Shown here: positions 30,197 through 63,438 of the stretch, in pieces | How the letters are laid out: every line of letters starts with the position of its first letter | Position numbering within the stretch: position 1 is the stretch's first letter | From: Staphylococcus sp. KG4-3 | GTDB taxonomy: Bacteria > Bacillota > Bacilli > Staphylococcales > Staphylococcaceae | Assembly (NCBI RefSeq): GCF_033597815.2 | Contig: NZ_CP166245.1 | Coordinates: 2,907,460-2,971,459, forward strand | Direction: 5' to 3' | DNA length: 64,000 nucleotides | The notes under the pieces: model-generated | What the model was told of the DNA's origin: nothing | The model's input: only the letters and a program-made list of their open reading frames with translations | Database searches by the model: none | Translations under genes and position numbers: made by a program

Positions 30197-30235
30197 TTAT
30201 TTATGATACGCTTCCGCTTATCGGTTCATAATGAG
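30197..30235 (-). other. SCC attachment site 2
   Basis: The core TTTATGATACGCTTC (30200-30214) and the flank cgcttatcggttcataatgagg with a T run match site 1. To the left, acaacttatttttagttttat matches the left flank of site 4 almost base for base, as expected if both are right ends of related cassettes. It separates element 1 from the Hachiman cassette. Confidence 0.8.
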
Positions 30236-30277
30236 GTTTTTATCTTATAAGTTATGCTTTAAAAATTATGCTTAAAT

Positions 30278-32386: not shown

Positions 32387-33300
32387 TATATTTGTTGCGC
32401 CCCTTTTAATTTAATATGCAAATCCTTGACTAACTCCTTTTTGTCATTTAATGGGAATAAAAATAAGTATATATCTAAATAATTAACCCATGCATGCGAA
32501 TCCTTTTTTTGATTAAGTGAGTTTAATAAATCAATAGACTCCTTACTCAATTCTTTATTGAATGTATCATTATCTTCAAATTCATTTCTATTACTTATAT
32601 GTTTACTCGTAAACCCCGCGAATAATGCAATTTTTATATTTGCTAATTTATCTAAACAAAGCGTCTCAGGGGAAATTAATGTTTTCATGAAATCATCTAG
32701 CTCAGCATCATCATCTTGTACTCTATTATTAATAATTGTAAATTCTGAATTGAAAAAATCTCTGTTAAAATGTGCCTTAAGGTCATTTACTAATTCTCTA
32801 ATTGCTGAATTACCATCTTGATATAATTTTGATTCACCTAACCATAGCTCTCTATTAGATTCATTTACATGTACAGCATCAAATCCGTGAGCTGCTAAAT
32901 TATTACTATCTTTAAAATATATTTTTGAAATTAGCGATTCTGCTTGAAAATAATGATGTAGAAAATGATATAGAATAAGCTCACCAAATTCACCTTTTTT
33001 TAAATATTTATCTTCTACTTCATTATTATTTAAATAGTAATCACTAGCTTCTTTAATTTCAGGTATGCTATAAATTTTTTTTAAAGCTTCTCTATTAATT
33101 CTTACTATATTAGTATTGTTGTTCAATCTTTTTTCAACTTGTCTCTGACCAAAAGCAAAATTAGGTATATCTTCAAATAATGTGTTATAAAATTCTTCTT
33201 TAACTTGCTCTAACTCACCAGTATCACTTAAATCAAAGTCTATATAGAATGTGTGTAATTTATTTTGATTATCTTCGTTAAATACAATTTGTTTCACCAT
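32386..33300 (-). CDS. hamA: Hachiman defence nuclease HamA (DUF1837)
   Basis: A 304-residue DUF1837 protein. The conserved core is KGEFGELILYHFLHHYF (near residue 102), AAHGFDAVHV (near 133) and LWLGESKLY (near 151). The Asp in GFDAV and Glu/Lys in GESK form the PD-(D/E)xK-like nuclease site. It is first in the operon, with hamB starting at its last base. In the characterised systems HamA is held inactive by HamB and degrades DNA on activation, stopping phage growth. Confidence 0.92.
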   Translation of the reverse strand: MVKQIVFNEDNQNKLHTFYIDFDLSDTGELEQVKEEFYNTLFEDIPNFAFGQRQVEKRLNNNTNIVRINREALKKIYSIPEIKEASDYYLNNNEVEDKYLKKGEFGELILYHFLHHYFQAESLISKIYFKDSNNLAAHGFDAVHVNESNRELWLGESKLYQDGNSAIRELVNDLKAHFNRDFFNSEFTIINNRVQDDDAELDDFMKTLISPETLCLDKLANIKIALFAGFTSKHISNRNEFEDNDTFNKELSKESIDLLNSLNQKKDSHAWVNYLDIYLFLFPLNDKKELVKDLHIKLKGAQQI

Positions 33301-33773
33301 GAATAACTCTCCTTAATAATTTTATAATAAAAAACCGTATCACTTATGATACGCTTCCCCTTATTAGTGATTTCACTAATAATATATATAGGAATTCTCT
33401 TGAAATAGAGCGCCCTTATTTACTACATTTACCTACCAATTATTGTAGTCTCCTCACTTAGTCCTACAATACACTTCTATACGATACCCAATCTATAAAA
33501 ACTACCAATATTAATACTTCTTGCGTTTTTTTATAGCATATAGCCTCATTTGTGAAATTGCCAAAAACCAGTTAGTTACTTAATATTTTTTCGTGTAAAA
33601 AATCATAAGATTAAAGAGTGAATTATTGGAACATGAGCATTAATAATCCTCTTAGGTATTTGTAAGAACAAGATATATAAAATATGGTGTTTTATTTTAA
33701 ACTAATTTATACTCTTCTATATAAGAAACTATTGTTATTTAATGATAAAAGCAATGGTCATTTTAATGAGGTG
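33301..33773. other. Boundary region between Hachiman cassette and ccrC element
   Basis: About 470 bases holding attachment site 3 (33331-33382), then AT-rich sequence to the sigma-54 gene. A hairpin TTATTAGTGA/TCACTAATAA adjoins the att core. The stretch 33400-33680 shows no gene that I can support. A promoter for rpoN must lie here but is not clear; TTGTAA then TATAAA near 33660-33682 is a weak candidate. Confidence 0.5.
33331..33382 (-). other. SCC attachment site 3
   Basis: Core CTTATGATACGCTTC (33343-33357) preceded by aaaaaccgtatca, the canonical inverted partner at the rlmH-proximal end of SCC elements. The right flank (cccttattagtgatttcactaataa) differs from sites 1, 2 and 4, showing that the element to the right belongs to a different end-type or has lost its usual end. 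Confidence 0.72.
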
Positions 33774-33779
33774 ATGTTT

Positions 33780-35075
33780 TTGATACTAGATATATTTCAA
33801 AATCAACGTACAACAATATCAATGACGCAACAGCTTAGCCAGTCAATATCGCTGTTACAGTATTCAACAATGGAATTAAAAGAATTTATACAAGAAGCGG
33901 CATTAGGAAATCCCTTGGTTGAAATAGAAGATAAAAAGTATATGACTACAAAAACAAATTCAACTAAAGCGGCAAATGACAGTGACGATGATTATATTGA
34001 GCGAATACCTAATGAAGAAAATTTAATTTGGGATGAATTACTAAAGGAAATTCAAATTTCTAATTGCACAAATAGAGAAAGAGTAATTTTAGCTAAAATT
34101 ATTTTAAATCTAAATGAAAGCGGTTTCTTAGATGGAGATTATTCTACATTAACCCGAGAGTGCGATATTACAGACGCTGAATTAGACGAACACATTATTT
34201 TGTTACAAAATTTTGGACCTCAAGGTGTAGGCGCGAGAAGTCTAAAAGAATGTCTAAAACTACAAGTTAGAAATGAATCAGCATATTTTCAAACAATAGT
34301 GCAACATTCAATTAAAGAAATTACAGAAGGAAATTGGGAAAAAATTGCGCAACAATTTAAAATGTCTGGAAAAGAACTAACAACATTTATTGAAATGGCA
34401 AAAAAGCTTAAAATTAAACCATTTGTCTATGAACGAGTAAGTTCGGAATATTTACATTTATATCCAGATGTTATTATAGAAAAATATAACCAAGGTTTTA
34501 CCGTACGCTTAAACGAATCATGTATACCTAATATTAAAGTGAACGAATATTACATGTCTTTAGAAAAACAAAATAAAGAATTAAAAACTTATATAAAAAA
34601 GCATTATAAAGATTATTTATGGTTAACGCATAGTATTGAAAAAAGGCAAGAGACATTAATGAATGTTACGAAATCGATTTTAATGTATCAACAGGATTTA
34701 TTTGATAAGAAAAGTAACATGATAAATCCAATGACACTAGAAGCAATAGCAAGTGATATTGATATGAGTGTGTCCACTATAAGTAGAACAATAAAAAATA
34801 AAGTTATTCAATCACCAATAGGCACATTTTATTTGGCAGATTTATTCTCTTCTAAACTATGTTCTAATATGGGAGACAATGTGTCATCTATTAATGTCAA
34901 AAATTTAATTAATACCTATATTAAAGAAGAAAATAAGGCAGCACCTTTATCAGATAATGCACTTTCGACTATGTTAAAAGAACAAAATGGAATAGAGATT
35001 TCACGTCGTACTGTTACGAAATATAGAAAAACAATGAAGATTGGTAGCTCGACTGATAGAAAGAAGAAAATGTAA
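33780..35075 (+). CDS. rpoN: RNA polymerase sigma-54 factor
   Basis: Region I at the N-terminus has the typical Gln/Leu-rich activator-contact sequence (MTQQLSQSISLLQYSTMEL). The core-binding region follows (about residues 70-280), then the DNA-binding part with ASDIDMSVSTISRTIKNK, and the RpoN box ISRRTVTKYRKTMKI near the end (consensus ARRTVAKYRE). All signature parts are present, so it should be functional. I place the start at TTG 33780, with GAGGTG 6 bases upstream. An ATG at 33774 abuts that site, and the longer frame from 33684 adds a segment foreign to the family. Sigma-54 needs an AAA+ activator, which is encoded 2.5 kb away. S. aureus has no sigma-54, so this gene is unusual for the genus. 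Confidence 0.95.
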   Translation: MILDIFQNQRTTISMTQQLSQSISLLQYSTMELKEFIQEAALGNPLVEIEDKKYMTTKTNSTKAANDSDDDYIERIPNEENLIWDELLKEIQISNCTNRERVILAKIILNLNESGFLDGDYSTLTRECDITDAELDEHIILLQNFGPQGVGARSLKECLKLQVRNESAYFQTIVQHSIKEITEGNWEKIAQQFKMSGKELTTFIEMAKKLKIKPFVYERVSSEYLHLYPDVIIEKYNQGFTVRLNESCIPNIKVNEYYMSLEKQNKELKTYIKKHYKDYLWLTHSIEKRQETLMNVTKSILMYQQDLFDKKSNMINPMTLEAIASDIDMSVSTISRTIKNKVIQSPIGTFYLADLFSSKLCSNMGDNVSSINVKNLINTYIKEENKAAPLSDNALSTMLKEQNGIEISRRTVTKYRKTMKIGSSTDRKKKM

Positions 35076-35100
35076 ATCATTGTTACCTTTTTATAGTATT

Positions 35101-35116
35101 TGGCACACTTCTTGCA
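35101..35116 (+). promoter_or_regulatory. Sigma-54 (-24/-12) promoter of ald
   Basis: TGGCAC, five bases, TTGCA: an exact match to the sigma-54 consensus TGGCAC-N5-TTGCW. It starts 26 bases after the rpoN stop and ends 39 bases before the ald ATG, giving transcription start near 35127. Confidence 0.88.
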
Positions 35117-35155
35117 TGTTGATAAGTGTAAGGTCAAATAATAGGAGGTATAATT

Positions 35156-36271
35156 ATGAAAATTGGAATTGTTAAAGAAATTAAGAACAATGAGAACAGA
35201 GTGAGTTTATCGCCAAGTGGTGTACACGCATTAGTAGAACAAGGACATAGTGTCGTTGTTGAAACTGCTGCCGGTTTAGGGTCATATTTTGAAGATGTTG
35301 ATTATGAGCAGGCAGGCGCTCAAATTGTAAATTCACAGGAAGAAGCATGGCGAGCCGATATGGTTATAAAGGTTAAAGAACCATTATCAGAAGAGTTTCA
35401 GTATTTTAGAAAAGATTTAATATTGTTTACTTATTTACATTTAGCCAATGAACCAAAATTGACTGAAGCATTACAAGATTATAAAGTAACGAGTATTGCT
35501 TATGAAACAGTACAATTACCAGACCGTTCATTACCTTTATTAACACCAATGAGTGAAGTAGCAGGACGTATGTCAACGCAAATTGGTGCAGAGTTTTTAC
35601 AAAAATATAAAGGTGGTATGGGGATTTTATTAGGTGGCGTACCTGGCGTATCTAAAGGTCAAGTTACTATTATCGGTGGCGGTCAAGCTGGTACTAACGC
35701 TGCAAAAATAGCGCTAGGATTAGGTGCTGACGTTACTATTTTAGATGTTAATCCAAAACGACTTCAACAATTAGAAGATTTATTCAATGGTCGTGTACAT
35801 ACGATTATGTCTAACCCATTAAATATTGAGCAGTGCGTAAAAAATAGCGACTTAGTGATTGGTGCCGTATTGATTCCAGGTGCAAAAGCGCCAAATCTTG
35901 TCACAGAAGAAATGGTTAAATCTATGAGAGATGGGTCAGTTATCGTCGATATTGCAATAGACCAAGGTGGTATCTTTGAAACAACTGATAGAATTTCGAC
36001 ACACGACAATCCAACGTATAAAAAACATGGTGTTGTACATTACGCTGTAGCTAATATGCCCGGTGCAGTGCCACGTACATCAACGATAGCTTTAAACAAT
36101 GCAACTTTACCTTATGCATTACAAATCGCTAATAAAGGTCTCGATGCCGTGATAAAAAGTAATAATGCATTAGCGTTAGGATTAAATACTTACAATGGCA
36201 ACATTATGAACCGTGAAGTTGCAAGTGCATTGAATAAAAAATATTACGCTTACAATACAGAATTAGTGTAA
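35156..36271 (+). CDS. ald: Alanine dehydrogenase
   Basis: A 371-residue NAD-dependent alanine dehydrogenase converting L-alanine to pyruvate and ammonia. N-terminal [20 protein letters not shown] and the substrate-binding KVKEP are typical. The NAD fold has [11 protein letters not shown] (near 173) with the acidic end DVNPKRL, and GAVPRTST (near 297) is conserved. AGGAGG precedes the ATG. It is driven by an exact sigma-54 promoter. Next to a pyruvate-type aminotransferase operon, its likely task is to recycle alanine made by transamination, returning pyruvate and releasing nitrogen. Confidence 0.93.
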
Positions 36272-36382
36272 CTACCAATAGTAAATAAGTTAACGGAACC
36301 CCACAAAATAACGTTGAAACTTAAAATAATTAATCTTCCCCTGATTATATTTCTAAATTGATAATTAATTCTGTTGAACTTT

Positions 36383-36418
36383 AAGAAGCCACCCAATTTA
36401 TTTTTGGGTGGCTTCTTA
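36383..36418. terminator. Bidirectional terminator after ald
   Basis: A 14-base stem AAGAAGCCACCCAA with TTGGGTGGCTTCTT, lying between the convergent ald and aguA genes. T-rich on the plus side and A-rich on the other, so usable in both directions. Confidence 0.85.
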
Positions 36419-36433
36419 TTATGGATTTACATA

Positions 36434-36467
36434 AAAACACTTTCTTTAATGAAAACAAAAGTGTTTA
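36434..36467 (-). terminator. Probable terminator of aguA
   Basis: A 9-base stem AAACACTTT with AAAGTGTTT around a loop, just past the minus-strand aguA stop, followed on that strand by TTTATG. Weaker than the neighbouring hairpin. Confidence 0.5.
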
Positions 36468-36496
36468 AAGGTAGTGAATAGTTCCCTTTATATGCG

Positions 36497-37591
36497 CTAT
36501 TTTGGTTGTTGTTGGGTGATGCAATGAATATTTCCACCACCTACAGAAATCTCTCGTGTGTAAACTTGAACTATTTTGCGATCTGGGAATAATTCTTGGA
36601 ACTTGTCGTATGCAATATCATCTTGGGGGTCATTAAATTTAGGTATTATAACGCCACCGTTACAGATATAACAATTTACATAAGTTGCGATAAAAAGTGT
36701 TTCTTCAGAACGTTCAAAACTCGAAGCACTTAAGTCGAGTTCATCACTTTCTTGTGCTGTAAGTGTTATTTGTTCAGGCATAGGTAACTTGTGTATTTTT
36801 AAAGTTCGTCTTTTAGCGTCGGTAACGTTTTGTAGTTGTTCATAGACTGATTGGATTAATTTATATTGCGGATGATTAACATCTTCCGTCCATCCTATAG
36901 CTACTTCTCCTGGTTTTACATAAAATAAAACTTCATCAATATGACCGTCTGTCTCATCATCGATTAACCCATTTTCTATCCATATGACTTTTTCAATGTT
37001 AAGGAAATTGCCTAATTGTGTTTCCATATTACTTTTGGAAATTGCTGGATTTCTATTGTTGTTAAGTATGCATTGTTCAGTTGTAATAACTGTTCCATCG
37101 CCATCTACACAAATGGAACCTCCTTCTAAAACAATGTGACTCGCATCATATCCATCAATTTGAGTTAATTCGAATATCTTGTTTTTTACTAATTGGTCTT
37201 GGTCCCAAGGAAAATAAAGACCTTCGTCAAGGCCACCCCATGAATTAAATGACCAATTTATACCTCTTATAGCTCCTTGATCGTTTTTTAAAAAGGTTGG
37301 ACCGATATCTCGCATCCAAGCATCATTAGAGGATATTTCAATAACACGAACTGAATCAGGTAATCTATTTCTAGCATCTTCATATTGCTCTCTATTAACG
37401 CAGACCGTAACAGGTTCAAATTGTGAAATAGACATAGCTACTTCGGTAAACGCTTTTTGTGCTGGTTTAGCACCTGCACGCCAAGTATCCGTTCTATGTG
37501 GCCATAACATCCAAGTTTGCGCATGAGGTTCATATTCCCCAGGCATTCTGTAACCGTCTTGTTTAGGTAATGTTTCGTTTATCAGTAACAT
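36497..37591 (-). CDS. aguA: Agmatine deiminase
   Basis: A 364-residue member of the guanidino-group modifying family. The start GYRMPGEYEPHAQTWMLWP is diagnostic of agmatine deiminase. Catalytic residues are in DAWMRDIGPTF, GGSICVDGDG, DGHIDEV and the C-terminal nucleophile Cys in GGGNIHCITQQ. It hydrolyses agmatine to N-carbamoylputrescine and ammonia. An AGGAGG binding site and a sigma-54 promoter lie directly upstream. No carbamoyltransferase (AguB) or carbamate kinase gene accompanies it, so energy-yielding fermentation of agmatine is not indicated. Instead an M20 amidohydrolase encoded 1.7 kb away may take the product further. Confidence 0.95.
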   Translation of the reverse strand: MLLINETLPKQDGYRMPGEYEPHAQTWMLWPHRTDTWRAGAKPAQKAFTEVAMSISQFEPVTVCVNREQYEDARNRLPDSVRVIEISSNDAWMRDIGPTFLKNDQGAIRGINWSFNSWGGLDEGLYFPWDQDQLVKNKIFELTQIDGYDASHIVLEGGSICVDGDGTVITTEQCILNNNRNPAISKSNMETQLGNFLNIEKVIWIENGLIDDETDGHIDEVLFYVKPGEVAIGWTEDVNHPQYKLIQSVYEQLQNVTDAKRRTLKIHKLPMPEQITLTAQESDELDLSASSFERSEETLFIATYVNCYICNGGVIIPKFNDPQDDIAYDKFQELFPDRKIVQVYTREISVGGGNIHCITQQQPK

Positions 37592-37618
37592 AATATTCCT
37601 CCTTTATAACTAACATAA

Positions 37619-37634
37619 TGCAAAATTCGTACCA
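37619..37634 (-). promoter_or_regulatory. Sigma-54 (-24/-12) promoter of aguA
   Basis: On the minus strand TGGTAC, five bases, TTGCA, one base from the best consensus and with the invariant GG and GC correctly spaced. It lies in the 47-base gap between the activator gene and aguA, so any upstream activator site must fall inside the 3' part of the activator gene. Confidence 0.82.
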
Positions 37635-37638
37635 AACT

Positions 37639-39051
37639 TTAATTATTATGAGCGTCAATATTATATTTTTTAAGTTTTCTTACATAAGTTGTTTGAGAAA
37701 TATTTAATGCATCTGCAGCTTTTCTCGTAGACTTATATTTTTCTTGAAATTGTGACAAAATATCTTTTTCAATATTGTTTAAATAATCAGGAAGTGAATC
37801 AATTTCAAATAGGTCACGAGTGTTTGTATTTGTTGATGATTTTTTAGTTTGTAATATCTTATTAGGTAAGTGAGAAACATTAATATTATCGTTCTTGGCA
37901 ATTACGACTAAGTATTCGATTACGTTTTCTAATTCTCTTATATTACCTGGCCAATCGTAAGCTTCTAAGTATGAAAGTATAACTTTATCCAAAATAATTT
38001 TACGATTATATTTTTTATTAAAATAATTCGTAAAATGATTTACGAATACGAGAATATCTTCCTTTCGTTCTCTTAATGACGGGATATTAATATCTATAAC
38101 ATTAAGTCTATAGTATAAATCAGCACGAAATGTTTTTTCATCCACCATAGCAATTAAATCTTTATTTGTAGCTGTAATTATACGTACATTAATTTTTTCT
38201 TCTTTAGATGCTCCTATAGGTACATAAGTATGATCTTGTATAAGCTGTAAAATCTTTGGTTGTAGAGTAAGTGGCAATTCCCCAATTTCATCTAAAAATA
38301 AAGTACCACCATGTGCCTGTGACACCAGTCCTTCTTTACCGTTTACATTTGCGCCTGTAAATGCGCCTTTTTTATAACCGAAAAGTTCTGATTCTAATAA
38401 CGTTTCAGGGATTGCACTACAGTTAATCTTAATAAACGGTTTGTTTGATCGATCACTTAAACGATGGATCTCTTTGGCGAATTTACTTTTACCGACACCT
38501 GTTTCCCCAGTTAATAAGGTGTTCGTATCTACAATAGCTATACGTTCAATAATATCTAATACATCTTTTATTTTATTGCTATTACCTTTAATTAACTTAT
38601 CCTGTTGTCGTTTCTTATAGGCGGGCGCATAGTTAATTGCCTTTTTGTAGTTTTTTAGTAATTCTTCAGATTTTTCGAGCTTTAATGATGATTTTACCGT
38701 TTCGGTTATGTCGCGAACTTGTACTAAAACATATTGTTGAGGGTCATTTGGAAATTTTATAAGTTTCCCAGTTGCCAAATATTTATAATCATTTGAAGTT
38801 TGTATTTTCGTCGTCATTTTATTGTTTTGTAGAACGAAACGTGTAACAGAAGGTTTAAATAAACCATCCTTTTCCAAAATACTTATATGTTTCCCGATTA
38901 GTTGTGAACGTGGTGTGTTCAATTGTTTCGTACTTGTATCATTCATCCACACTACGATGCCAGCATAATTAGTTATAAAAATACCGTCGTTTAATGCGTT
39001 AAACACAGACTTTATATCTTCGTCATTATATTCGTAAGTATTTAAGTTCAT
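37639..39051 (-). CDS. Sigma-54-dependent transcriptional activator (PAS, AAA+, Fis HTH)
   Basis: An N-terminal PAS sensor (about residues 10-115; GIFITNYAGIVVWMND) is followed by the AAA+ domain. Walker A is GETGVGKSKF, the GAFTGAN loop touches sigma-54, Walker B is GTLFLDEIGELPL, and the arginine-rich sensor region follows. A Fis-type helix-turn-helix (STRKAADALNISQTTYVRKL) ends the protein. This is the complete architecture of a bacterial enhancer-binding protein, with the intact loop that distinguishes true sigma-54 activators. The signal is unknown and the PAS ligand may be a pathway metabolite. I take the ATG at 39051 with AGGGG just upstream. A longer frame from 39099 has no site. Confidence 0.93.
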   Translation of the reverse strand: MNLNTYEYNDEDIKSVFNALNDGIFITNYAGIVVWMNDTSTKQLNTPRSQLIGKHISILEKDGLFKPSVTRFVLQNNKMTTKIQTSNDYKYLATGKLIKFPNDPQQYVLVQVRDITETVKSSLKLEKSEELLKNYKKAINYAPAYKKRQQDKLIKGNSNKIKDVLDIIERIAIVDTNTLLTGETGVGKSKFAKEIHRLSDRSNKPFIKINCSAIPETLLESELFGYKKGAFTGANVNGKEGLVSQAHGGTLFLDEIGELPLTLQPKILQLIQDHTYVPIGASKEEKINVRIITATNKDLIAMVDEKTFRADLYYRLNVIDINIPSLRERKEDILVFVNHFTNYFNKKYNRKIILDKVILSYLEAYDWPGNIRELENVIEYLVVIAKNDNINVSHLPNKILQTKKSSTNTNTRDLFEIDSLPDYLNNIEKDILSQFQEKYKSTRKAADALNISQTTYVRKLKKYNIDAHNN

Positions 39052-39145
39052 CATACCCCTCATTTCTCTTAATTTATTAGTGATGCAATTTTGACTCATT
39101 GATGTAAATGTAACTCACAATTAATCAATATAATTCTCATTTTAA

Positions 39146-39160
39146 TAGAAAACGCTTCCA
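39146..39160 (+). promoter_or_regulatory. Candidate catabolite-repression (cre) site
   Basis: TAGAAAACGCTTCCA matches the CcpA operator consensus WTGNAANCGNWWNCA at 14 of 15 positions. It lies 44 bases before the -24 element of the carbamoyl-amidohydrolase operon and about 95 bases before the divergent activator gene. A site here would place the module under carbon control. Based on one match only. Confidence 0.45.
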
Positions 39161-39203
39161 ACAAAAAGGATTAATCTGTAAATTTTCAGCTATCAAAATA
39201 AGT

Positions 39204-39219
39204 TGGCACGAAGTTTGCA
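39204..39219 (+). promoter_or_regulatory. Sigma-54 (-24/-12) promoter of the amidohydrolase operon
   Basis: TGGCAC, five bases, TTGCA: an exact consensus match, 25 bases before the GTG start of the first gene, with AAGGGGGG between them. It should drive the four-gene operon 39245-44787. Confidence 0.88.
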
Positions 39220-39244
39220 TATAGCAAAGTAAGGGGGGATATAT

Positions 39245-40483
39245 GTGGAAACACCGGAATTAAAAGTAGATGAAACTTATTTATTTGAAAAAATTAATGA
39301 AAGTTCTGAGATTGGTAAGACCGCAAATAATGGACTAAATCGTTTAGCGTTGACTGACGAAGATAAGTTAATGCGGGATGATTTTATTTCTTGGATGAAA
39401 GAAGAATCATTAGAAGTTCGTGTTGATGACTTTGGTAATATTTATGGTCGACGCGAAGGAATAAATAATGAGGCTTTACCTATCGTTATTGGGTCTCACC
39501 TTGACACGCAACCTTATGGTGGCCGCTTTGACGGTGTACTAGGTGTGCTTGGAGGCTTGACTGTAATTAAAACATTAAATGAATACAATATTAAAACAGA
39601 AAGACCCATTGAACTTGTTAACTTCACCAATGAAGAGGGCGCGAGATTTCCACAACCAATGGTTGCCTCTGGAGGCTTAATTGGAGAATTTAAAAAATCA
39701 TATATCTATAATCTTACTGATAACGAAGGAACTACTTATGAAGAGGCATTAAAGCAAATTGATTATAAAGGGTTAGAATCTCAACGTATTAAAGAGGCAT
39801 ATAGTTTCCTTGAATTGCATATTGAACAAGGACCTGTCTTAGAAAATGAGCATAAAGAAATTGGCATTGTTCAAGGTATTCAAGGGATGACGTGGTTATC
39901 TATAAATATTAAAGGTTTTTCAAATCATGCCGGTTCTACACCGATGCAACATAGAAAAGATGCATTTCATAAAGCTACTACAGTAATACAAGATATTTAT
40001 GAAATAGCTAAAAAACAAAAAGGGTTAAATATCACAATAGGTAAGGTGAATGTTTCGCCAAATGTACCGAATGTCATTCCTGGCGAAGTGCAATTTATAG
40101 TAGATATACGACATCAAAATAAGAGTGTCTTAACAGAATGCCAAAACAAAATAGTACAACTTATTACTGCGGTATCAAATGAACAAGACTACCAAGCTAC
40201 TGTGGCTGTTGATTGGGCAGCTGAACCGATAGCATTTGCGGATAATGTTACTCAGGCTATTAAAGATAGCACTGAAGCATTAAATTATTCTTATCTAGAA
40301 ATGTATAGTGGGCCAGGTCACGATGCAAAAAATATGGCTAATATGACTGATACTGCCATGATATTTGTTCCTAGCCATAAAGGCATTAGTCACAATGAAG
40401 CAGAGTTAACCTATGATAAGCATATTATTCAAGGTGTAGAGGTATTACTAAGGACAGTAAATGAACTAGCAAATAATAAATAA
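39245..40483 (+). CDS. M20-family amidohydrolase (N-carbamoyl amino acid/beta-ureidopropionase type), 412 aa
   Basis: A zinc-dependent hydrolase of the HyuC/AllC/beta-ureidopropionase group. Metal ligands are visible in GSHLDTQPYGGRFDG (near residue 79), FTNEEGARF (near 126) and LEIHIEQGP-like LELHIEQGP (near 193), with a late His in GPGHDAKN. HLDTQPxGGRFDGVLG is closest to carbamoyl-beta-alanine hydrolases. The family cleaves N-carbamoyl groups to amine, CO2 and ammonia. Because the regulon contains agmatine deiminase, N-carbamoylputrescine is a plausible substrate, which would be new for this family. Beta-ureidopropionate remains an alternative. Start is GTG behind AAGGGGGG. First gene of the sigma-54 operon. 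Confidence 0.85.
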   Translation: METPELKVDETYLFEKINESSEIGKTANNGLNRLALTDEDKLMRDDFISWMKEESLEVRVDDFGNIYGRREGINNEALPIVIGSHLDTQPYGGRFDGVLGVLGGLTVIKTLNEYNIKTERPIELVNFTNEEGARFPQPMVASGGLIGEFKKSYIYNLTDNEGTTYEEALKQIDYKGLESQRIKEAYSFLELHIEQGPVLENEHKEIGIVQGIQGMTWLSINIKGFSNHAGSTPMQHRKDAFHKATTVIQDIYEIAKKQKGLNITIGKVNVSPNVPNVIPGEVQFIVDIRHQNKSVLTECQNKIVQLITAVSNEQDYQATVAVDWAAEPIAFADNVTQAIKDSTEALNYSYLEMYSGPGHDAKNMANMTDTAMIFVPSHKGISHNEAELTYDKHIIQGVEVLLRTVNELANNK

Positions 40484-40499
40484 AATTGGAGTGTTAATT

Positions 40500-41864
40500 A
40501 TGACAAACGAAAAAAACTTATTTGAATTAGATCGCGAACATATTATTCATCCACAAAGTAATCCGAAAGAACATTATGAACAAGGACCTAAAATTATATT
40601 TGATGAAGGGAACGGCATCTATTTGAAAGATGTTGAAGGCCATGAATATATTGACGGCGTTTCTATGTTATGGAATGTCAACTTAGGTCATGGTAATAAA
40701 GAATTAGCGGAAGCGGCATATAACCAAATGACTAAAGCAGCATATACAACAACATTTTATAATTATACAAATGAACCTTCAGTAAAATTAGCAGAGAAAA
40801 TTACGTCATTAGCACCTGGAGATTTAAATTCAATTTTCTATACATCAGGCGGTTCAGAGTCTAACGATACAGCATTTAAATTATCTAGATTTTATTGGCA
40901 ACAAAAAGGTTACGACAATAAAAACATTATCATTTCACTAAAAAGAGGTTACCACGGTGTAACAATTGCAGCACAACGCGCTACTGGTATTGGCGCGTAT
41001 AGAGATTTCTCAGGAGTTCTTGAGCAAAAGATTATTAATGCAGAAGCTCATTTAACTGAATGTGAGTTAGGCGATAAATCACATCCAGATTATGACAAAA
41101 GTATTAGCGGTTTAATTGACGAATTGGGTGCGGATAGAATAGCAGCAATTATTATTGAACCTGTACAAGGTGCAGGAGGTGTCCATGTTTCTCCAAACGG
41201 CTATTTACAAGCTGTAAGGAGTTTGTGTGATAAAAATCACATCCATTTTATAGCCGATGAAGTTATTTGTGGATTTGGTAGAACAGGAGAAATGTTCGGC
41301 TGTAATCATTGGGATGTAGTACCTGACTTTATGTGTGTAGCTAAAGGGCTTACTAGTGGCTATATTCAATTAGGTGGCGTAATTATGAGAGATGAAATTA
41401 AAAACACATTAAATGAATTTGATGACATGATACCACATGGCTTTACTTATAGTGGTCACCCTACGGCATGTGCAGTAGGTCTTAAAAATATAGAAATTTT
41501 AGAAAGAGATAATTGGGTATCACATGCAAAAGAAATGGGCGACAAATTATTAGCCGGCTTGCAAAAACTAGAAGAAAAATATTCATTCTTTGCTAATCCT
41601 CGAGCAAAAGGCTTATTAGCAGGTATTGATTTAGTGAAAAATAAAGAAACAAATGAACCATTCGATTTTGGAGATAGAGCAGCGAATCAACTTATTACGG
41701 AATGTTTTAACCGTGATTTATTAATTCGTGCGTTTGATTTCGAACCAGGTATGAACATCGTAGCTATTGCACCACCATTAATTGTGAATGAAGAAGAAAT
41801 CGACAACATTATCAATATCATAGATGCAGCGGCAGCTAAAATTAAAAAAACATTATATAAATAA
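40500..41864 (+). CDS. Class III omega-aminotransferase (pyruvate-dependent type), 454 aa
   Basis: A PLP enzyme of aminotransferase class III. SGGSESNDTAFKLSR (near residue 119) binds cofactor phosphate, IIIEPVQGAGG is conserved, ADEVICGFGRTG carries the PLP-pairing Asp, and CVAKGLTSGY holds the lysine. It is most like beta-alanine or putrescine:pyruvate aminotransferases, which produce alanine. Alanine dehydrogenase encoded in the same regulon would then recover pyruvate. I use the ATG at 40500 because GGAG lies 9 bases upstream; an in-frame GTG at 40491 overlaps that site. Second gene of the operon, 16 bases after the hydrolase. Confidence 0.88.
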   Translation: MTNEKNLFELDREHIIHPQSNPKEHYEQGPKIIFDEGNGIYLKDVEGHEYIDGVSMLWNVNLGHGNKELAEAAYNQMTKAAYTTTFYNYTNEPSVKLAEKITSLAPGDLNSIFYTSGGSESNDTAFKLSRFYWQQKGYDNKNIIISLKRGYHGVTIAAQRATGIGAYRDFSGVLEQKIINAEAHLTECELGDKSHPDYDKSISGLIDELGADRIAAIIIEPVQGAGGVHVSPNGYLQAVRSLCDKNHIHFIADEVICGFGRTGEMFGCNHWDVVPDFMCVAKGLTSGYIQLGGVIMRDEIKNTLNEFDDMIPHGFTYSGHPTACAVGLKNIEILERDNWVSHAKEMGDKLLAGLQKLEEKYSFFANPRAKGLLAGIDLVKNKETNEPFDFGDRAANQLITECFNRDLLIRAFDFEPGMNIVAIAPPLIVNEEEIDNIINIIDAAAAKIKKTLYK

Positions 41865-41882
41865 TTTTAATGGGGGAGTTAT

Positions 41883-43364
41883 ATGACTGCTACACAAAAT
41901 AAAGTAATACCAGAAGTTCAAACATTTTTAAATACGCCAATCCCGTTATTTATTAACGGTGATTGGCATACACCTAAAGACAAAGCAACTTTTATTGCTG
42001 AAAATCCAGCTACTGGCAACTCGTTAGCAACTGTATATGAAGCAAAAGAAAATGAAGTGAATATGGCAGTAGATGCAGCAGAACGTGCGTTTCACGATAG
42101 CGAATGGTCACGAATGAGTGCTTATGACAGATCAAAACTGATGTTCAGGTTAGCTGATTTAATGGAAAGAGATTTTGAAATTATAGCTCAATTAGATTCA
42201 TTAGATAACGGGAAACCAGTGGATGAAGTAAGAGAGAGTGACTTACCTAATGCGATTGAAAATTTACGTTATTTTGCTGGTTGGACTACCAAATTAACAG
42301 GACAAACTATTCCAATAGATACTGAATTTTTCAATTATACAAGACACGAACCTGTAGGCGTGGTAGGTCAAATTATTCCATGGAATTTCCCTATTATGAT
42401 GGGTTTGTGGAAAATTGCGCCAGCAATTGCAACAGGTTGTACGGTTGTACTTAAACCTGCCGAACAAACACCTGTGTCAGCCCTGTATTTAGGAAAATTA
42501 ATTAAAGAAAGTGGCTTTCCTGATGGAGTCATAAATATCATTAGTGGTTTTGGTAAAGAAGCGGGACATTATTTAGTAAATCATCAAAAAGTTAATAAGA
42601 TTGCATTTACTGGATCAACTGCCACTGGGCAACAAATTATGAAACAAGCAGCCGATACGATGAAACGAGTCACATTAGAACTTGGCGGTAAATCACCGAA
42701 TATTATTTTAGAAGACGCCGATTTAGAAAAGGCTGTTCCAGGTGTATTTAACGGCATCATGGTTAACCAAGGTGAAGTATGTTGTGCAGGTTCACGTGTC
42801 TTTATACCAGAAAAGATTTTTGATCAAGTCGTACAAAAACTGAAAAGTTTTGCGGACAACACTGTATTAGGCATGGGTATCGAAGAAGGCACGACTATGG
42901 GGCCATTGGTTTCTCAAAAGCAATATGACACTGTTACTGCTTATATTGAGAAGGGTCTTAACGAAGGTGCAACAATGGTTACAGGTGGTACTAAGGATGG
43001 TGAAGGCTATTTTGTAAAACCTACAATTTTTACTGACGTGAACAAAGAAATGTCTATTGTAAAAGAAGAAATATTTGGTCCCGTTGCTGTACTAATACCT
43101 TATTCAGAAATTGATGAAGTTGTAGATATGGCAAATGATACTGAATATGGGTTAGCTGCAGGAGTTTGGACGCAAAATTTAAAAAATGCACATACAGTAG
43201 CTAATAAATTGAAGGCTGGGACAGTTTGGATAAATTGTTATAACTTAACGAATGCTGCGACACCTTTTGGAGGCTACAAACAATCAGGATTTGGACGTGA
43301 AATGGGATCATATGCATTGGAAAATTATACAGAAGTTAAAAGCGTGTGGGTCAATTTAGATTAA
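41883..43364 (+). CDS. NAD(P)-dependent aldehyde dehydrogenase, 493 aa
   Basis: An ALDH superfamily enzyme. IPWNFPIMMGLWKIAPA (near residue 164) and FTGSTATGQ (near 240) bind the cofactor, LELGGKSPNI contains the general base Glu (near 264), and NQGEVCCAGSR holds the catalytic Cys (near 298). The pattern is that of the ALDH1/2/9 type acting on free aldehydes rather than the CoA-acylating methylmalonate-semialdehyde type. In this operon it should oxidise the semialdehyde or aminoaldehyde made by the aminotransferase, such as 4-aminobutyraldehyde to GABA. GGGGGAG precedes the ATG. Confidence 0.92.
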   Translation: MTATQNKVIPEVQTFLNTPIPLFINGDWHTPKDKATFIAENPATGNSLATVYEAKENEVNMAVDAAERAFHDSEWSRMSAYDRSKLMFRLADLMERDFEIIAQLDSLDNGKPVDEVRESDLPNAIENLRYFAGWTTKLTGQTIPIDTEFFNYTRHEPVGVVGQIIPWNFPIMMGLWKIAPAIATGCTVVLKPAEQTPVSALYLGKLIKESGFPDGVINIISGFGKEAGHYLVNHQKVNKIAFTGSTATGQQIMKQAADTMKRVTLELGGKSPNIILEDADLEKAVPGVFNGIMVNQGEVCCAGSRVFIPEKIFDQVVQKLKSFADNTVLGMGIEEGTTMGPLVSQKQYDTVTAYIEKGLNEGATMVTGGTKDGEGYFVKPTIFTDVNKEMSIVKEEIFGPVAVLIPYSEIDEVVDMANDTEYGLAAGVWTQNLKNAHTVANKLKAGTVWINCYNLTNAATPFGGYKQSGFGREMGSYALENYTEVKSVWVNLD

Positions 43365-43449
43365 CACTTTAATAATGATGAAGTATTGTATTCAAATATA
43401 ACTTTATCAATTAATTTCCTGTATTCAAATACATGGAAGGAATGATTTT

Positions 43450-44787
43450 ATGGATGACGAAAGACAGATTGAACGAAAACTTAAACTTGTTCACATCATT
43501 ACACTTGGCCTAGCCTATATGGCACCATTTGCTGTATTTGATACTTTTGGCATAGCTTCTAATATTTCTTCTGGGCATGTACCATTTGCATATGTTTTTG
43601 TATTTTTAGCTATTTTATTAACTGCGTTAAGTTATGGTAAATTAGTGAAAAAATATCCATCTTCTGGTTCAGTCTATGCTTATACTAGAAATATTATTAA
43701 TCCTTACGTCGGCATTTTGGTAGGATGGTTATCATTTATAGCTTATTTGTCACTACCAATGATTAATTCACTGTTAGCCAAAATATTTATTTCATCACTG
43801 TTACCACAAATACCAGGTTGGACTTGGATCGTTGGATTAGTGATACTGATTACGTTATTAAATATATTTGGCATTGAGTTTGCAGCAGCGCTTAATATTG
43901 GACTGGTTTTCGTTCAAATTCTTGTAGGAATCGTATTTATAACTTTAACGATACATGATATAAATAATGGCCCAGGTCACTTCATGTCATTTAGTGAATT
44001 GATGCCTAAATTCCAGGAATTAAGTGGTTTCTTTGGAGCCTCAGCACTGTTAGGCATGAGTTTTATAGGTTTTGATGCAGTAACAACATTAGCAGAAGAC
44101 ACAGTAAACCCTAAGAAAACAATACCTAAAGCAATATTTTTTATTACGATTATAGGCGGCGTATTTTTCTTCACTGTGACGTACTTTATGCAATCACTTA
44201 TTCCTAATGTATCAATTTTAAAGAATATTCAAGGTGCGTCTCCTGAAATAGCTACTATTATTGGTGGAAAAGCATATTTAATATTTTTCATCTTAGGAGG
44301 TATGTTATCAGTGTTTGCATCTGGCTTAGCAGCACAAATTAGCGCTTCAAGACTATTATATGCTATGGGAAGAGATAGCGTTATACCTAAAAAATGCTTT
44401 GGTTATCTAAACAAAAAAACAAAAACACCTATTTTCAACATAATTATTACAGGTATTTTAGCTTTATCTGCTTTATTTTTAAATTTACAACAGGCTACAT
44501 CACTCGTTAATGTCGGCGCATATACTGCATTTCTCGTAGTTAATATATGTGTAGTAAAAAATTATTTTACACTCGATAATAAAAGTAATATCTATCGTAT
44601 AATTACAGAACTCTGCTTTCCTGGGATTGGCCTAATTTTTATCTTGTATCTATGGTTTAATTTAGATAAATTCGCAATTGTCATGGGTGTAATTTGGTTT
44701 ATTATTGGCGTTATATACTTATTGACTACTACACGTTGTTTTACAAAAGAGCCAGTAGATATAGCATTTGAAGAATTAGAAGATTAG
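43450..44787 (+). CDS. APC-family amino acid/polyamine permease, 445 aa
   Basis: A membrane protein with about 12 helices. The first helix region HIITLGLAYMAPFAVFDTFG is characteristic of the amino acid-polyamine-organocation family, with the conserved GMSFIGFDAVTTLAEDTVNPKK part near residue 200 (quoted here in two pieces: GMSFIGFDAV and TTLAEDTVNPKK). It is the last gene of the sigma-54 operon, 85 bases after the aldehyde dehydrogenase with no -24/-12 element in between. It probably brings in the substrate, agmatine or putrescine by context. AGGAATG precedes the ATG. Confidence 0.9.
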   Translation: MDDERQIERKLKLVHIITLGLAYMAPFAVFDTFGIASNISSGHVPFAYVFVFLAILLTALSYGKLVKKYPSSGSVYAYTRNIINPYVGILVGWLSFIAYLSLPMINSLLAKIFISSLLPQIPGWTWIVGLVILITLLNIFGIEFAAALNIGLVFVQILVGIVFITLTIHDINNGPGHFMSFSELMPKFQELSGFFGASALLGMSFIGFDAVTTLAEDTVNPKKTIPKAIFFITIIGGVFFFTVTYFMQSLIPNVSILKNIQGASPEIATIIGGKAYLIFFILGGMLSVFASGLAAQISASRLLYAMGRDSVIPKKCFGYLNKKTKTPIFNIIITGILALSALFLNLQQATSLVNVGAYTAFLVVNICVVKNYFTLDNKSNIYRIITELCFPGIGLIFILYLWFNLDKFAIVMGVIWFIIGVIYLLTTTRCFTKEPVDIAFEELED

Positions 44788-45289
44788 AATGAGAATGCAA
44801 GTTCGATAAAGTTACTATAAAGGACTAAAATAGAAAAACATTTATCCTCATTCTAAAGGGCCATCCTTTTTTAATTGTTTCACTCTCTTTTCCTCTGTTA
44901 TATTTTAAGAAAAGAATAATTTATAAGGTGGAGTTATTAATTATAGTAAATCAACAATTGTATTCAAATATAAATTATGTATCTAATTCTTTTTGAAGAA
45001 AAATGATGAATTGTCTATGTAAGAAGATAAATATAAGTATTTGAGCAGAAAATATTTTCCGCTTTCCAGAAAAATTATGGACAACGATATTAATAATAAT
45101 TCTAAGTATTGATAAAGTATGGTAGTAATTCAAAAAAATCAGTAAAACGTGTGTTACTTAAAAATTAATCAAAAAATCTACTAGATAAAATTGTAAAAAT
45201 CACCCACCTTTAGTATTATTCGCTAAAAGTGGGTGATTTTTCATTTAACTTTAGTAAATATTTTTAAAATCACTTCTCAAGTGAGTATT
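44788..45289. other. Intergenic, 500 bp, between catabolic module and teichoic-acid genes
   Basis: No gene is recognisable. A 10-base inverted repeat (TTAGAATGAG at 44784-44793, CTCATTCTAA at 44847-44856) spans the end of the permease gene and could act in termination. The strong terminator of the minus-strand glycosyltransferase gene lies at 45195-45241. The sequence between is AT-rich with no feature I can support, and may be the seam between two cargo segments. Confidence 0.5.
45195..45241 (-). terminator. Terminator after the GT2-TagF gene
   Basis: Stem AAAAATCACCCACCTTTAG with CTAAAAGTGGGTGATTTTT (one mismatch). T-rich ends on both strands let it work in both directions. It is about 50 bases after the minus-strand stop. 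Confidence 0.85.
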
Positions 45290-48163: not shown

Positions 48164-48182
48164 TTTATGTCTCCCTATATTT

Positions 48183-49052
48183 TTATATTAATTTATTTAT
48201 GGATTTAATAAATTCTTTAATTTCTTTTTTCATATAATCATCATTTAAAGCAAATTGTATTGTGGTTTTAACAAATCCTATTTTTTCACCTACATCATAA
48301 CGTTCACCTTCAAAATTATAAGCGTATACACAATCTTCAGAATTTAAATGTTCAATTGCATCTGTTAACTGTATCTCGCCACCTGCGCCTATTTCTTGTC
48401 GACCTAAATAATCAAATATTTGCGGTGTCAGTACATAACGTCCCATTATTGCTAAATTTGAAGGCGCTGTACCAATTTCTGGTTTTTCTACAAATTTATT
48501 TACACTAAACAACTCATTGTACGATTCTTTAGGATCAACAATACCGTATCTATGTGTTTCATTTTCATTTACTTGTTGTACTCCTATAATTGATTTACCT
48601 GTCGTTTCATATTGGTTCATCAATTGTTTAATTGCTGGAGTATCCGCTTGTACAATGTCATCTCCTAATAAAACAGCAAATGGTTCATTTCCTATAAATT
48701 GTCTAGCAGTCCATATAGCATGACCTAAACCTTTTTGTTCTTTTTGTCTTACATAAAACATATTTGCTAGGTTGTTTGAGTATTTTACTGATTGAAGTAA
48801 ATCAGACTTACCTTTTTCTTCCAGAGTCATTTCCAATTCTTTTTGATTGTCAAAATGATCTTCGATTGCTCTTTTATGCTTACCTGTAACTATAATAATA
48901 TCTTCAATTCCCGCTTCTACTGCTTCTTCTACTATATATTGGATAGTAGGCTTATCTAAAATAGGTAACATTTCTTTAGGCATCGCTTTAGTTGCTGGTA
49001 AAAATCTGGTCCCTAAACCTGCTGCTGGTATTATAGCTTTCTTAATTTTCAT
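48183..49052 (-). CDS. galU: UTP-glucose-1-phosphate uridylyltransferase
   Basis: A 289-residue nucleotidyltransferase with [20 protein letters not shown] at the start, LLGDDIVQ as the metal-binding segment, and [11 protein letters not shown] later; all are GalU signatures. It makes UDP-glucose for glycolipid and wall polymer glycosylation. It is the first gene of a two-gene operon with the GT2-TagF gene. Staphylococci normally have a housekeeping copy (gtaB) elsewhere, so this is probably an extra copy carried with its consumer. A 14-bp inverted repeat lies in its promoter region. Confidence 0.94.
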
Positions 49053-49116
49053 AAGTTACATCCTCCCTCTAATATTTCAAATCATTGATAAAGCTCCCAT
49101 ACTTTTATCAATAGAT

Positions 49117-49898: not shown

Positions 49899-49917
49899 GA
49901 TTTATTCATCCTCAAAT

Positions 49918-51145: not shown

Positions 51146-51160
51146 TTATTTCACTCCCTG

Positions 51161-52991: not shown

Positions 52992-53010
52992 AATTTACTC
53001 CATATATTGG

Positions 53011-54383: not shown

Positions 54384-56060
54384 TTAAGTGGTAAAAGTGA
54401 TAATTCGGTCAATGAAATAATTGTTTCGACCGTCTATTTCGAATTGGAATTTGGGCATAAAAAAAGACCCCCAATCTTTTTTCAAAGATTGAGGGATAAG
54501 GCTTTCGTCAATTTTATACCGTACGAGCTTCACTTTTTTATCTATAGTAATTTCAATAGAGTCAATCAACATCTTCATAAGTTGATTTTTTGCTTCTGGT
54601 GTAGCTTCTCTTAAGTAGACACTAAATCGGCTAATCATCATGGTTAAACGGCTTTTAAGTTTATCAAAATTAGGTACTTCAGCTTGTGATTCCGTAGCTT
54701 GTTGCGTTTCTTTAATTTGCTTATCTAACATCTCTAGTTGTTCATTCATCTGACTTTGTTTTGTTTTTAACATTTCGCTGTCCATTTGATCATCTAAGAA
54801 CAATTCTAACAATCGTTCTTGTTGTGTTTTAATCTTGGCTTTTTGTTTTTCCAAACTATCAATGTCATATTTAATTTCTGTTTGGCTACTATGCTTTTGT
54901 TTCAGTTCTTCTATCACTTTTGACGCAATCTGCTTTATAACATCAGGTTTAGACAGAATACGATTAAGATGAACATTAATCACCCGTTCGACTACTTCTG
55001 CATTAATCGCATTACTATGACATGCAGAACTCCCTGAACGATTGAATAAGGAACAAATGTAATAGCGTTTGATTGTCCGTTCTTTTGATTTTTTGGTTTT
55101 ATAATAAGTACGTCTACATACCATATTATTTCCGCACTCTGGACATTTGATGAGCCCACGAAGGTAGAAATCTCCACCAATGGGTCTACCTGGTTTAAAA
55201 CTTTTTGAAGCTAATTTCTCATGAACTTGATCAAATACATCTTCACTTATAATGGATTCATGCTTACCTTTGACCAATATCACATCATTTTTATCACTTT
55301 TACCACTTCTTCGCTGAACTGCCCAGTTTTGATGATTATTGAATCTAACATAGCCTTTATAGACTGGATTATTCAAAATATACTTAACGCCATATACTGA
55401 AAATGGCTTTTGATTAATGGTACGATACCCCTTTTGATTCAGTACGGTTGTAATGGCTTTGAGTCCTTTATTATGATTCAAATACAAATCGAAGATTTCA
55501 CGTACAATATTAGCTTCTTTTTCATTCATAACCAAATCATTTTTCTGTGTAAGTGGATTAAGTGATAACTTATATCCAAGTACTCGACCTGTAATTGCTT
55601 CTCCACTACGTGCTTTGGCATTCATCGACATCTTGACGTTACTGATAAGTGTTGAGCGTTCGATTGATCCTATTAACCCAAACATTGTAACGAGTACTTC
55701 TCCAGATGCATTGGATGTATCAATATTCTCAGAAATCGACTTATATCCTACGCCATGTTCTTTGAATTCATGAATGATATTAAACACATCTCTCATTGAA
55801 CGTGATATACGATTCAATTTCCAACTTAATACCATTTCGATTTTATTATCCTTAACATCTTGTAAAAGACGTTTCATTGCTGGACGACCTTCAATATTTT
55901 TACCTGATATACCAGAATCGATATAAGTTTCATAATCATAACCTGGGTGATTTTTAACAACTTCTTTGATGAGCACTTGTTCTTGTTCACGGATTGAATA
56001 TCCACGTTCTGACTGCTCAGACGTACTTACACGTGAATATAGTGCAATTTTCTTCTTCAT
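54384..56060 (-). CDS. ccrC: Cassette chromosome recombinase CcrC (large serine recombinase)
   Basis: A 558-residue large serine recombinase. The catalytic serine is in ALYSRVSTSEQ (residue about 11). The resolvase domain includes SGISGKNIEGRPAMKRLL and WKLNRISRSMRD. A recombinase domain (about 170-280) follows, then a zinc-ribbon IKCPECGNNM with a second Cys pair in YYICSLFNRSGSSACHS, and a C-terminal coiled coil (about 370-470). The sequence closely fits CcrC of type V SCCmec. It excises and integrates cassettes at the rlmH att sequence, four copies of which flank or lie in this cluster. Confidence 0.95.
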   Translation of the reverse strand: MKKKIALYSRVSTSEQSERGYSIREQEQVLIKEVVKNHPGYDYETYIDSGISGKNIEGRPAMKRLLQDVKDNKIEMVLSWKLNRISRSMRDVFNIIHEFKEHGVGYKSISENIDTSNASGEVLVTMFGLIGSIERSTLISNVKMSMNAKARSGEAITGRVLGYKLSLNPLTQKNDLVMNEKEANIVREIFDLYLNHNKGLKAITTVLNQKGYRTINQKPFSVYGVKYILNNPVYKGYVRFNNHQNWAVQRRSGKSDKNDVILVKGKHESIISEDVFDQVHEKLASKSFKPGRPIGGDFYLRGLIKCPECGNNMVCRRTYYKTKKSKERTIKRYYICSLFNRSGSSACHSNAINAEVVERVINVHLNRILSKPDVIKQIASKVIEELKQKHSSQTEIKYDIDSLEKQKAKIKTQQERLLELFLDDQMDSEMLKTKQSQMNEQLEMLDKQIKETQQATESQAEVPNFDKLKSRLTMMISRFSVYLREATPEAKNQLMKMLIDSIEITIDKKVKLVRYKIDESLIPQSLKKDWGSFFMPKFQFEIDGRNNYFIDRIITFTT

Positions 56061-62982: not shown

Positions 62983-63438
62983 TTTTAGGAATGATTGTAA
63001 TAAACTTTCATCTTCTGTTTTATAAATAGTACTAAAGTACTTCAGGTTAAACGATTTAATAGTATACCTCTCCTTTTATGTTTTGGACAACTTAATTTTT
63101 AGTTTTATTTGTGATACGCTTCTGCTTATCGATTTATGATGCAGTTTTTGGTTAATAAATAGCCGGTTTCAATATGAAACCAGCTAAACAAATTTTATGA
63201 TTTTTATATATTAGGGTAGTAACTACAATAATCTTTTAGCAATATGAACAGTAATTTTAGTATGAATGAATTAACTGATAGCAACCTACATGTATAATAC
63301 AAATATGTAGAGGTTGGTTTCTTATAATAAATGACTCAATATTCTTACTAATATGATTACGATTAATAAACGTTAAATTTTCATTTTTCAAATATCTAAG
63401 TTACAGCGGATACTTTAATTTAGTGAAATTAACTTACT
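62983..63438. other. Intergenic, 456 bp, with cassette boundary
   Basis: Contains the promoter region of the nuclease-helicase operon (62983-63060), then attachment site 4 (63080-63153). A hairpin (tagccggtttca / tgaaaccagcta, 63160-63186) lies immediately inside the next element. The rest is AT-rich with no gene I can support. Confidence 0.6.
63080..63153 (-). other. SCC attachment site 4
   Basis: Core TTTGTGATACGCTTC (63108-63122), reading on the minus strand GCAGAAGCGTATCACAAATAA, i.e. AEAYHK then stop. The left flank ggacaacttaatttttagttttat matches that of site 2. The right flank tgcttatcgatttatgatgcag with T run matches sites 1 and 2. The codons before EAYHK are not those of rlmH, so this is an internal junction between cassettes and not the chromosomal gene. 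Confidence 0.8.

Follow-up and report, generated by a model that had tools for sequence, protein, structure and literature searches.

A probable mobile sigma-54 regulon for the breakdown of agmatine-type amines on a staphylococcal cassette chromosome

In the 3.02 Mb genome of Staphylococcus sp. KG4-3 (G000), the final 64 kb of contig C1 (2,971,459 bp), hereafter called the window, include an eight-gene module that encodes the sigma factor RpoN (sigma-54), an enhancer-binding activator and a set of catabolic and transport proteins. The genes are ordered rpoN, ald, aguA (reverse), activator (reverse), M20 amidohydrolase, class-III aminotransferase, aldehyde dehydrogenase and permease (Table 1). 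We consider that this module is probably a horizontally mobile, self-contained sigma-54 regulon for the catabolism of agmatine-type amines, residing in a host that otherwise lacks sigma-54. An earlier note on this DNA had pointed to a sigma factor, activator, promoters and regulon carried together on a ccrC-bearing staphylococcal cassette chromosome (SCC), and had regarded them as a candidate for an undescribed system.

RpoN matches all three Pfam domains of the sigma-54 family above their cut-offs (PF00309, 52.6 bits; PF04963, 133.3 bits; PF04552, 170.2 bits) and thus includes the activator-interacting domain (region I), the core-binding domain and the DNA-binding domain. It also passes the TIGR02395 model, with a score of 368.5 against a cut-off of 277.35. 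The RpoN box SRRTVTKYR is present, and in an alignment with six relatives both the box and region I align with RpoN of other Bacilli. PF04552 has a single match in the KG4-3 genome.

The activator combines a sigma-54 AAA+ domain (PF00158, 223.5 bits), in whose sequence the GAFTGA loop was read, with a Fis-type helix-turn-helix domain (HTH_50, 51.7 bits). None of the NCBIfam models listed for this protein passed its cut-off, the best being PrdR with 395 against 795. Intact region I and RpoN box, as well as the PAS domain, GAFTGA loop and Fis-type helix-turn-helix of the activator, are all as the earlier note had read them. In Bhargavaea ginsengi, a Bacilli bin and genome G370 (loci L104, L113 and L076), about 0.4 kb or less separates rpoN from an activator. 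Linked rpoN-activator pairs recur in Bacilli, since of 80 named rpoN loci 12 show an activator match within the fetched flanks.

The three -24/-12 promoters that the note had listed stand before ald, aguA and the M20 gene. Between KG4-3 and a second staphylococcal genome that carries the module (G024), two of them are kept in all 16 letters and the third differs by one spacer change. With zero mismatches, TGGYACNNNNNTTGCW was found 14 times in the KG4-3 genome, three of these being the module promoters. The other 11 TGGYACN5TTGCW sites are all inside open frames of 108 to 367 codons and have letter-identical counterparts in G083, a draft genome of the same species that has no rpoN match. The three module sites are therefore the only sites of the TGGYAC form not seen in the rpoN-less draft as well. 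A background of 11 sites in 3.02 Mb predicts 0.04 sites in the module, where three are seen (Poisson P ~1e-5).

Single matches to the pattern mean little, because a reversed-pattern control gives 5 matches in KG4-3, against 14 for the true pattern, and genomes without rpoN have 4 to 12 matches each. A looser search of the window (two mismatches) found 25 sites against a mean of 15.8, a number reached by 5 of 100 shuffles and so no enrichment past the upper chance range. The form TGGYAYN5TTGCH adds three sites in the window (15878, 21556 and 43869), each within a coding frame, and the one at 43869, within the permease gene, is not kept in G024. A sigma-70-type scan was no richer than shuffles (55 against a mean of 61.3) and assigned no promoter to rpoN or to the activator. 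The promoter case rests on the exact sites plus their positions. For the TGGYAC form at zero mismatches, no wider regulon was found in the KG4-3 genome, and we suggest that sigma-54 would transcribe the module from these three sites.

Table 1 Features of the sigma-54 module, of the cassette that carries it and of a different module in G005.
Feature	Position	Strand	Remarks
Conserved sigma-54 module	33656..44837 (11.2 kb)	.	Stretch common to G024 at 86.5% identity
rpoN, sigma-54 factor	33774..35075	+	Start probably at ATG 33774 or TTG 33780; maximal open frame 33684-35075
-24/-12 promoter TGGCACACTTCTTGCA	35101..35116	+	39 bp before ald; exact to TGGCACN5TTGCW
ald, alanine dehydrogenase	35156..36271	+	TIGR00518, 568.9 vs 391.85 bits
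aguA-type agmatine deiminase	36497..37591	-	TIGR03380, 532.2 vs cut-off 381.8 bits; best PDB match 2jer
-24/-12 promoter TGGTACGAATTTTGCA	37619..37634	-	27 bp before aguA; one letter off TGGCACN5TTGCW
Enhancer-binding protein (activator)	37639..39099	-	PAS, sigma-54 AAA+ with GAFTGA, lid, HTH_50
Candidate activator-binding region	39080..39130	.	Kept in G024; imperfect tandem repeat read by eye; weak evidence
-24/-12 promoter TGGCACGAAGTTTGCA	39204..39219	+	25 bp before M20 gene (catabolic operon); exact to TGGCACN5TTGCW
M20 hydantoinase/carbamoylase-type amidohydrolase	39245..40483	+	TIGR01879, 435.8 vs 204 bits
Class-III aminotransferase, amine-transaminase-like	40491..41864	+	Pfam match; no NCBIfam equivalog passed
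Aldehyde dehydrogenase	41883..43364	+	Pfam match; none of 25 listed NCBIfam models passed cut-off
APC-family amino acid/amine permease	43450..44787	+	Pfam match
SCC att repeat GAAGCGTATCATAAGTGA	33340..33357	-	Module-side end of ccrC element
SCC att repeat	63105..63122	-	rlmH-proximal end of ccrC element
ccrC, cassette chromosome recombinase	54384..56060	-	NF047347, 1198 bits vs cut-off 900
G005 sigma-54 module	G005:C16:156002-165652 (L018:6002-15652)		Activator, catabolic operon, divergent rpoN

Neither species has a broken reading frame among the eight genes. Between KG4-3 and G024 the dN/dS ratio (NG86) reaches about 0.17 in rpoN and 0.04-0.07 in the remaining seven genes, values that indicate purifying selection on all eight. 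It is very improbable that the module is decaying or silent, with a sigma-54 incompatible with the host polymerase or an activator that never fires. That rpoN encodes the fastest-changing of the eight proteins (79% identity) would agree with such decay; the intact frames, the low dN/dS and the conserved promoters all argue against it.

The enzymes of the module point to a substrate of the agmatine type. The best PDB match of the aminotransferase is an amine transaminase (6fyq), followed lower by putrescine aminotransferase and polyamine:pyruvate transaminase, and a close match to it (E ≤ 1e-150) was found in only two of 157 genomes of the order, both of them carriers of the module. The PDB matches of the M20 enzyme are deacylase and carbamoylase structures. 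Its residues E130, Q195, R289 and H383 match Glu131, Gln196, Arg291 and His385 of the enzyme in 8c46, at a numbering offset of 6; these are the four ligand residues, including a carboxylate-binding arginine, that the description of that enzyme names (PMC10952681). A first idea, that the M20 protein is an N-carbamoylputrescine amidohydrolase, was dropped, as the carboxylate-binding arginine is retained. With this arginine kept, 4-ureidobutyrate would fit as substrate better than N-carbamoylputrescine. The order that we favour would thus lead from agmatine through N-carbamoylputrescine, 4-ureidobutanal and 4-ureidobutyrate to gamma-aminobutyrate (GABA), while alanine dehydrogenase would recycle the alanine formed by a pyruvate-dependent aminotransferase. 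AguB, AguY and putrescine transcarbamylase were not found among the eight module genes, to which this search was confined. We know of no description of such a carbamoyl-protected route from agmatine via 4-ureidobutyrate to GABA.

Under the same sigma-54 control, the cargo could instead serve to degrade a different ureido acid, such as N-carbamoyl-beta-alanine from the reductive pathway of pyrimidine degradation, or compounds like allantoate, while AguA acts alongside. The retained arginine of the M20 enzyme is in line with this, and the first of its PDB matches with named carbamoyl substrates (8c46 and 8apz) hydrolyse carbamoyl-beta-alanine and carbamoyl amino acids, the higher-scoring entries being named deacylase or amidase only. 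A Bacillus badius plasmid also carries an aminotransferase-aldehyde dehydrogenase pair with an M20 hydrolase 3-5 kb away (58%, 61% and 31% identity) and no aguA match. Yet in KG4-3 AguA passes an agmatine-specific model and is under the same -24/-12 control, while alanine dehydrogenase suits any pyruvate-dependent aminotransferase and is not decisive. We regard a cargo for other ureido compounds as unlikely, though deserving of attention.

The working of sigma-54 and of its activators is established for these families, and a regulon for agmatine-type amines could operate as follows. RpoN would replace the usual sigma factor on core RNA polymerase and keep the enzyme closed at the three -24/-12 promoters. 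The PAS domain of the activator would sense a small molecule, most simply the amine or a pathway intermediate, and the activator, bound upstream, would hydrolyse ATP and use its GAFTGA loop to open the promoters; a candidate binding region is located about 75-125 bp upstream of the M20 promoter. Uptake by the permease and catabolism of agmatine or a close relative would thereby be switched on. AguA would deiminate this compound, the aminotransferase would transfer its amino group to pyruvate, yielding alanine that alanine dehydrogenase returns to pyruvate, the aldehyde dehydrogenase would carry out an oxidation step, and the M20 enzyme would remove the carbamoyl group, leaving GABA and ammonia as end products. 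The host would then possess what the earlier note called a separate transcription channel, which in this strain would travel as cargo of a ccrC SCC element.

Both hallmarks of an SCC are present in KG4-3, namely a ccr recombinase and att direct repeats that start at the 3' end of rlmH. Five exact att repeats share one orientation, at the rlmH end (C1:11115) and at window positions 63105, 33340, 30197 and 15319, a series that is continuous to rlmH only if contig C1 is circular; a further copy with one mismatch lies far from the others, at C1:855152. Both ccrC and the module are inside the att-bounded interval 33340-63122 (29.8 kb). The same ccrC element recurs in another genome, G072 (90.7% over window positions 45114-59282), where it is bounded by two att sites 17.3 kb from each other and the sigma-54 module is missing. 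At its end, att and then CCCCTTATTAGTGAT are directly joined to sequence that in KG4-3 is located past the module. Because the end of the G072 element adjoins this sequence, the module looks like cargo that was inserted just within the end of a pre-existing SCC. A tandem fusion of two SCCs, with a lost att between the module and the ccrC element, was considered and rejected, since the interval 44701-45300 offers nothing recognisable as att, its best candidates showing 5 mismatches (on the wrong strand) or 6.

Carriage on a ccrC-bearing SCC, as the earlier note had it, describes KG4-3 and not the module in general. In G024 the module lies 64 kb from rlmH on the SCC side, and within the 120 kb read there no other att was found within one mismatch; a site with two mismatches is on the other strand at C1:121105. 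Synteny with the flanks of the G024 module is seen in both G038 and G039; G038 has about 1.2 kb in its place, and G039 has 0.35 kb at this site and additionally lacks about 2.4-3 kb to the right. The G024 copy is a chromosomal insert, outside any recognised SCC, that both relatives lack at the matching place. Repeats at its ends amount to one shared 10-mer. The combination of sigma factor, activator, promoters and co-located regulon proposed in the note holds, and its extent is redrawn to the conserved unit of Table 1.

The earlier note would have been refuted had rpoN turned out to be an ordinary chromosomal gene with a fixed location across the staphylococci, and this was not the case. Judged by score, length and RpoN protein or Pfam evidence, real rpoN genes occur in three of 84 genomes of the genus (KG4-3, G024 and G005), the same three being the only ones among 108 genomes of the family. 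Raw PF04552 matches at E ≤ 0.001 are more frequent (7 of 84 and 9 of 108), and four in each set exceed the Pfam cut-off. The weak matches in G020, G048, G051 and G073 (290-codon frames), G093 (125 codons) and G104 (266 codons) score 20.3-23.5 bits, with G073 at 23.5 against a cut-off of 22.8, and were rejected as rpoN; the RpoN protein query matched none of these six genomes.

Across the order, 22 of 157 genomes match RpoN, 19 of them from a single family (f4, presumably the Salinicoccaceae), one with an internal stop. In a sample of the class 275 of 398 genomes match, and the closest RpoN besides that of G024 is 40% identical. Genome contigs (a collection that may leave out the source genome) were scanned with an RpoN protein pattern, which matched 24 stretches, none a confirmed relative, and with a seven-row RpoN alignment, which matched at least 591 stretches, at least 581 of which encode a relative. 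Among the best 80 of these, at 26-37% identity, none is titled Staphylococcus. The module DNA matched no plasmid record. Matches to rpoN were found on 221 plasmid records, many of them rhizobial. Among phage records, 15 carry a remote RpoN match (<60% identity), and none of these has a staphylococcal name.

The three staphylococcal carriers hold rpoN in three settings: on an SCC (KG4-3), in a chromosomal insert (G024), and upstream of rlmH, not on the SCC side (G005). The G005 module consists of an activator, a flavin oxidoreductase, a proline racemase, a protein without Pfam match, a transporter, an enzyme of the dihydrodipicolinate synthase (DHDPS) family, an aldehyde dehydrogenase and a divergent rpoN, whose product has a region I without PF00309 match. 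Sites of TGGCAT form are at L018:7465 and 5980. By comparison with the hydroxyproline pathway, this operon is probably a hydroxyproline regulon.

Could the module be a relic instead? An ancestral Staphylococcales sigma-54 might have been lost by most Staphylococcaceae, kept in a few species and later captured by an SCC. The 19 sigma-54-bearing genomes of f4, in the same order, favour such a history. In a quick tree of 128 RpoN rows, KG4-3 and G024 group together (99) beside G005 and 17 f4 rows, apart from the other 108; long branches make this placement unsure, as the program itself warned. Against a relic stand the three different settings with two different cargoes, of which the G024 insert faces empty sites in two relatives, and the same-species draft G083 without rpoN match; among 84 genomes of the genus no rpoN traces were seen at one syntenic place. 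Moreover, fourfold-site differences between KG4-3 and G024 are lower in the module (0.41, 473/1157) than in core genes (0.53, 1431/2697 in 23 core rows; Fisher P = 4e-12), where rows below 60% protein identity or 70% coverage were dropped and three poor rows of the 23 (two antisense frames and one misaligned) are still counted. Because of this lower divergence, the two module copies would have split later than the species. We find descent from an ancestral gene improbable, and the distribution fits a mobile sigma-54 regulon.

Several observations weigh against a mobile regulon for agmatine. A divergence of 0.41 at fourfold sites indicates that the common ancestor of the two copies is not a recent one, and the place of RpoN beside other Staphylococcales sigma-54s, on long branches, may reflect an old presence in the order. 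The search for activator sites yielded weak repeats only, the candidate in Table 1 among them. The genome-wide promoter count covers the TGGYAC form, and TGGCAT forms, which sigma-54 uses in Bacillus and apparently also in G005, were counted within the window. The substrate is assigned from protein families: the permease passed no NCBIfam model that fixes a substrate, the aminotransferase and the aldehyde dehydrogenase passed none of this sort among the 25 best listed, and two of the models passed by the M20 enzyme bear the name allantoate amidohydrolase.

Other parts of the window hold further genes. A Hachiman pair (HamB, 30278-32386; HamA, 32386-33300) is alone between two att repeats (30197-33357) and resembles a 3-kb ccr-less SCC unit with one defence system. 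Three genes at 25458-30008 encode an unknown protein, an AAA_5 protein (PADLOC PDC-M26A, 160 bits) and a DUF2357/PDDEXK_7 protein, and form a candidate defence system. Within the region 11791-25109, the att at 15319 separates an McrBC-type pair (11791-15073) from a type I restriction-modification set (18865-25109). The open reading frame (ORF) at 48-2090 has AMP-binding, carrier and NAD_binding_4 reductase domains and resembles the end of a peptide synthetase.

Sigma-54 is usually viewed as a global chromosomal regulator, and here it acts as cargo dedicated to one catabolic regulon, in hosts otherwise devoid of it. The module widens the known range of SCC cargo, could serve as a natural experiment on how a sigma-54 system fares with a naive polymerase, and is a possible orthogonal expression channel for staphylococcal genetics. 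Tentatively, and with more doubt than confidence, we suggest that SCCs and related islands may move whole orthogonal transcription systems among staphylococci, so that a sigma-54-free host would acquire a further class of RNA polymerase, with the three co-travelling promoters as its regulon, and would run a carbamoyl-protected agmatine route. If true, the genus would have used this strategy more than once, given the hydroxyproline-type module of G005 and the divergent RpoN that belongs to it.

Among the open-access papers listed on sigma-54 or rpoN in Staphylococcus, SCC or relatives, none reports such a module. The consulted sections of a sigma-54 survey place the factor in spore-forming Bacilli, Listeria, Enterococcus faecalis and some lactobacilli, and the stem "staphylococc" is absent from its main text (PMC3162934). 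To our knowledge, a portable sigma-54 regulon is unreported in the genus and on SCC, and it has precedents of its kind elsewhere; the reading in the earlier note is largely right.

The arginine catabolic mobile element (ACME) is an SCC-type element with catabolic cargo (arc, opp and speG), like the present one, and differs in that its cargo is not known to include a sigma factor. No arc family or operon was found among the 40 of 57 window ORFs that were scanned. Plasmid p1CACC566 of Lacticaseibacillus paracasei (NZ_CP048004.1), typed as mobilizable, carries rpoN next to a gene annotated as a sigma-54-interacting regulator, together with an operon in which a -24/-12 site (TGGCACGAAACTTGCT) precedes the first phosphotransferase system (PTS) gene by 33 bp. 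Its activator gene is 2.8 kb long, its operon is a mannose-class PTS sugar operon, its RpoN is 27% identical to ours, and it is a plasmid and not an SCC. According to the passages considered here, the Mesorhizobium loti element ICEMlSymR7A carries rpoN2/nifA2, with rpoN2 essential for nitrogen fixation (PMC3538637). It is likewise an integrative element with rpoN and its activator, but in a proteobacterial host with a chromosomal rpoN1 and with a nif/fix regulon. Sigma-54 clusters of Bacillus thuringiensis such as gab and roc share PAS activators, TTGGYAY-N5-TTGCW promoters and operons for amino-acid or amine catabolism with the module, whereas one sigma factor there serves many activators and "agmatine" does not occur in that text (PMC4428206). 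Finally, the AguA-AguB and AguA-AguY pathways begin, in the portion of the source used here, with agmatine deiminase (PMC12283126); the module shares this AguA step, and an M20 carbamoylase-type enzyme stands in place of the AguB or AguY amidase.

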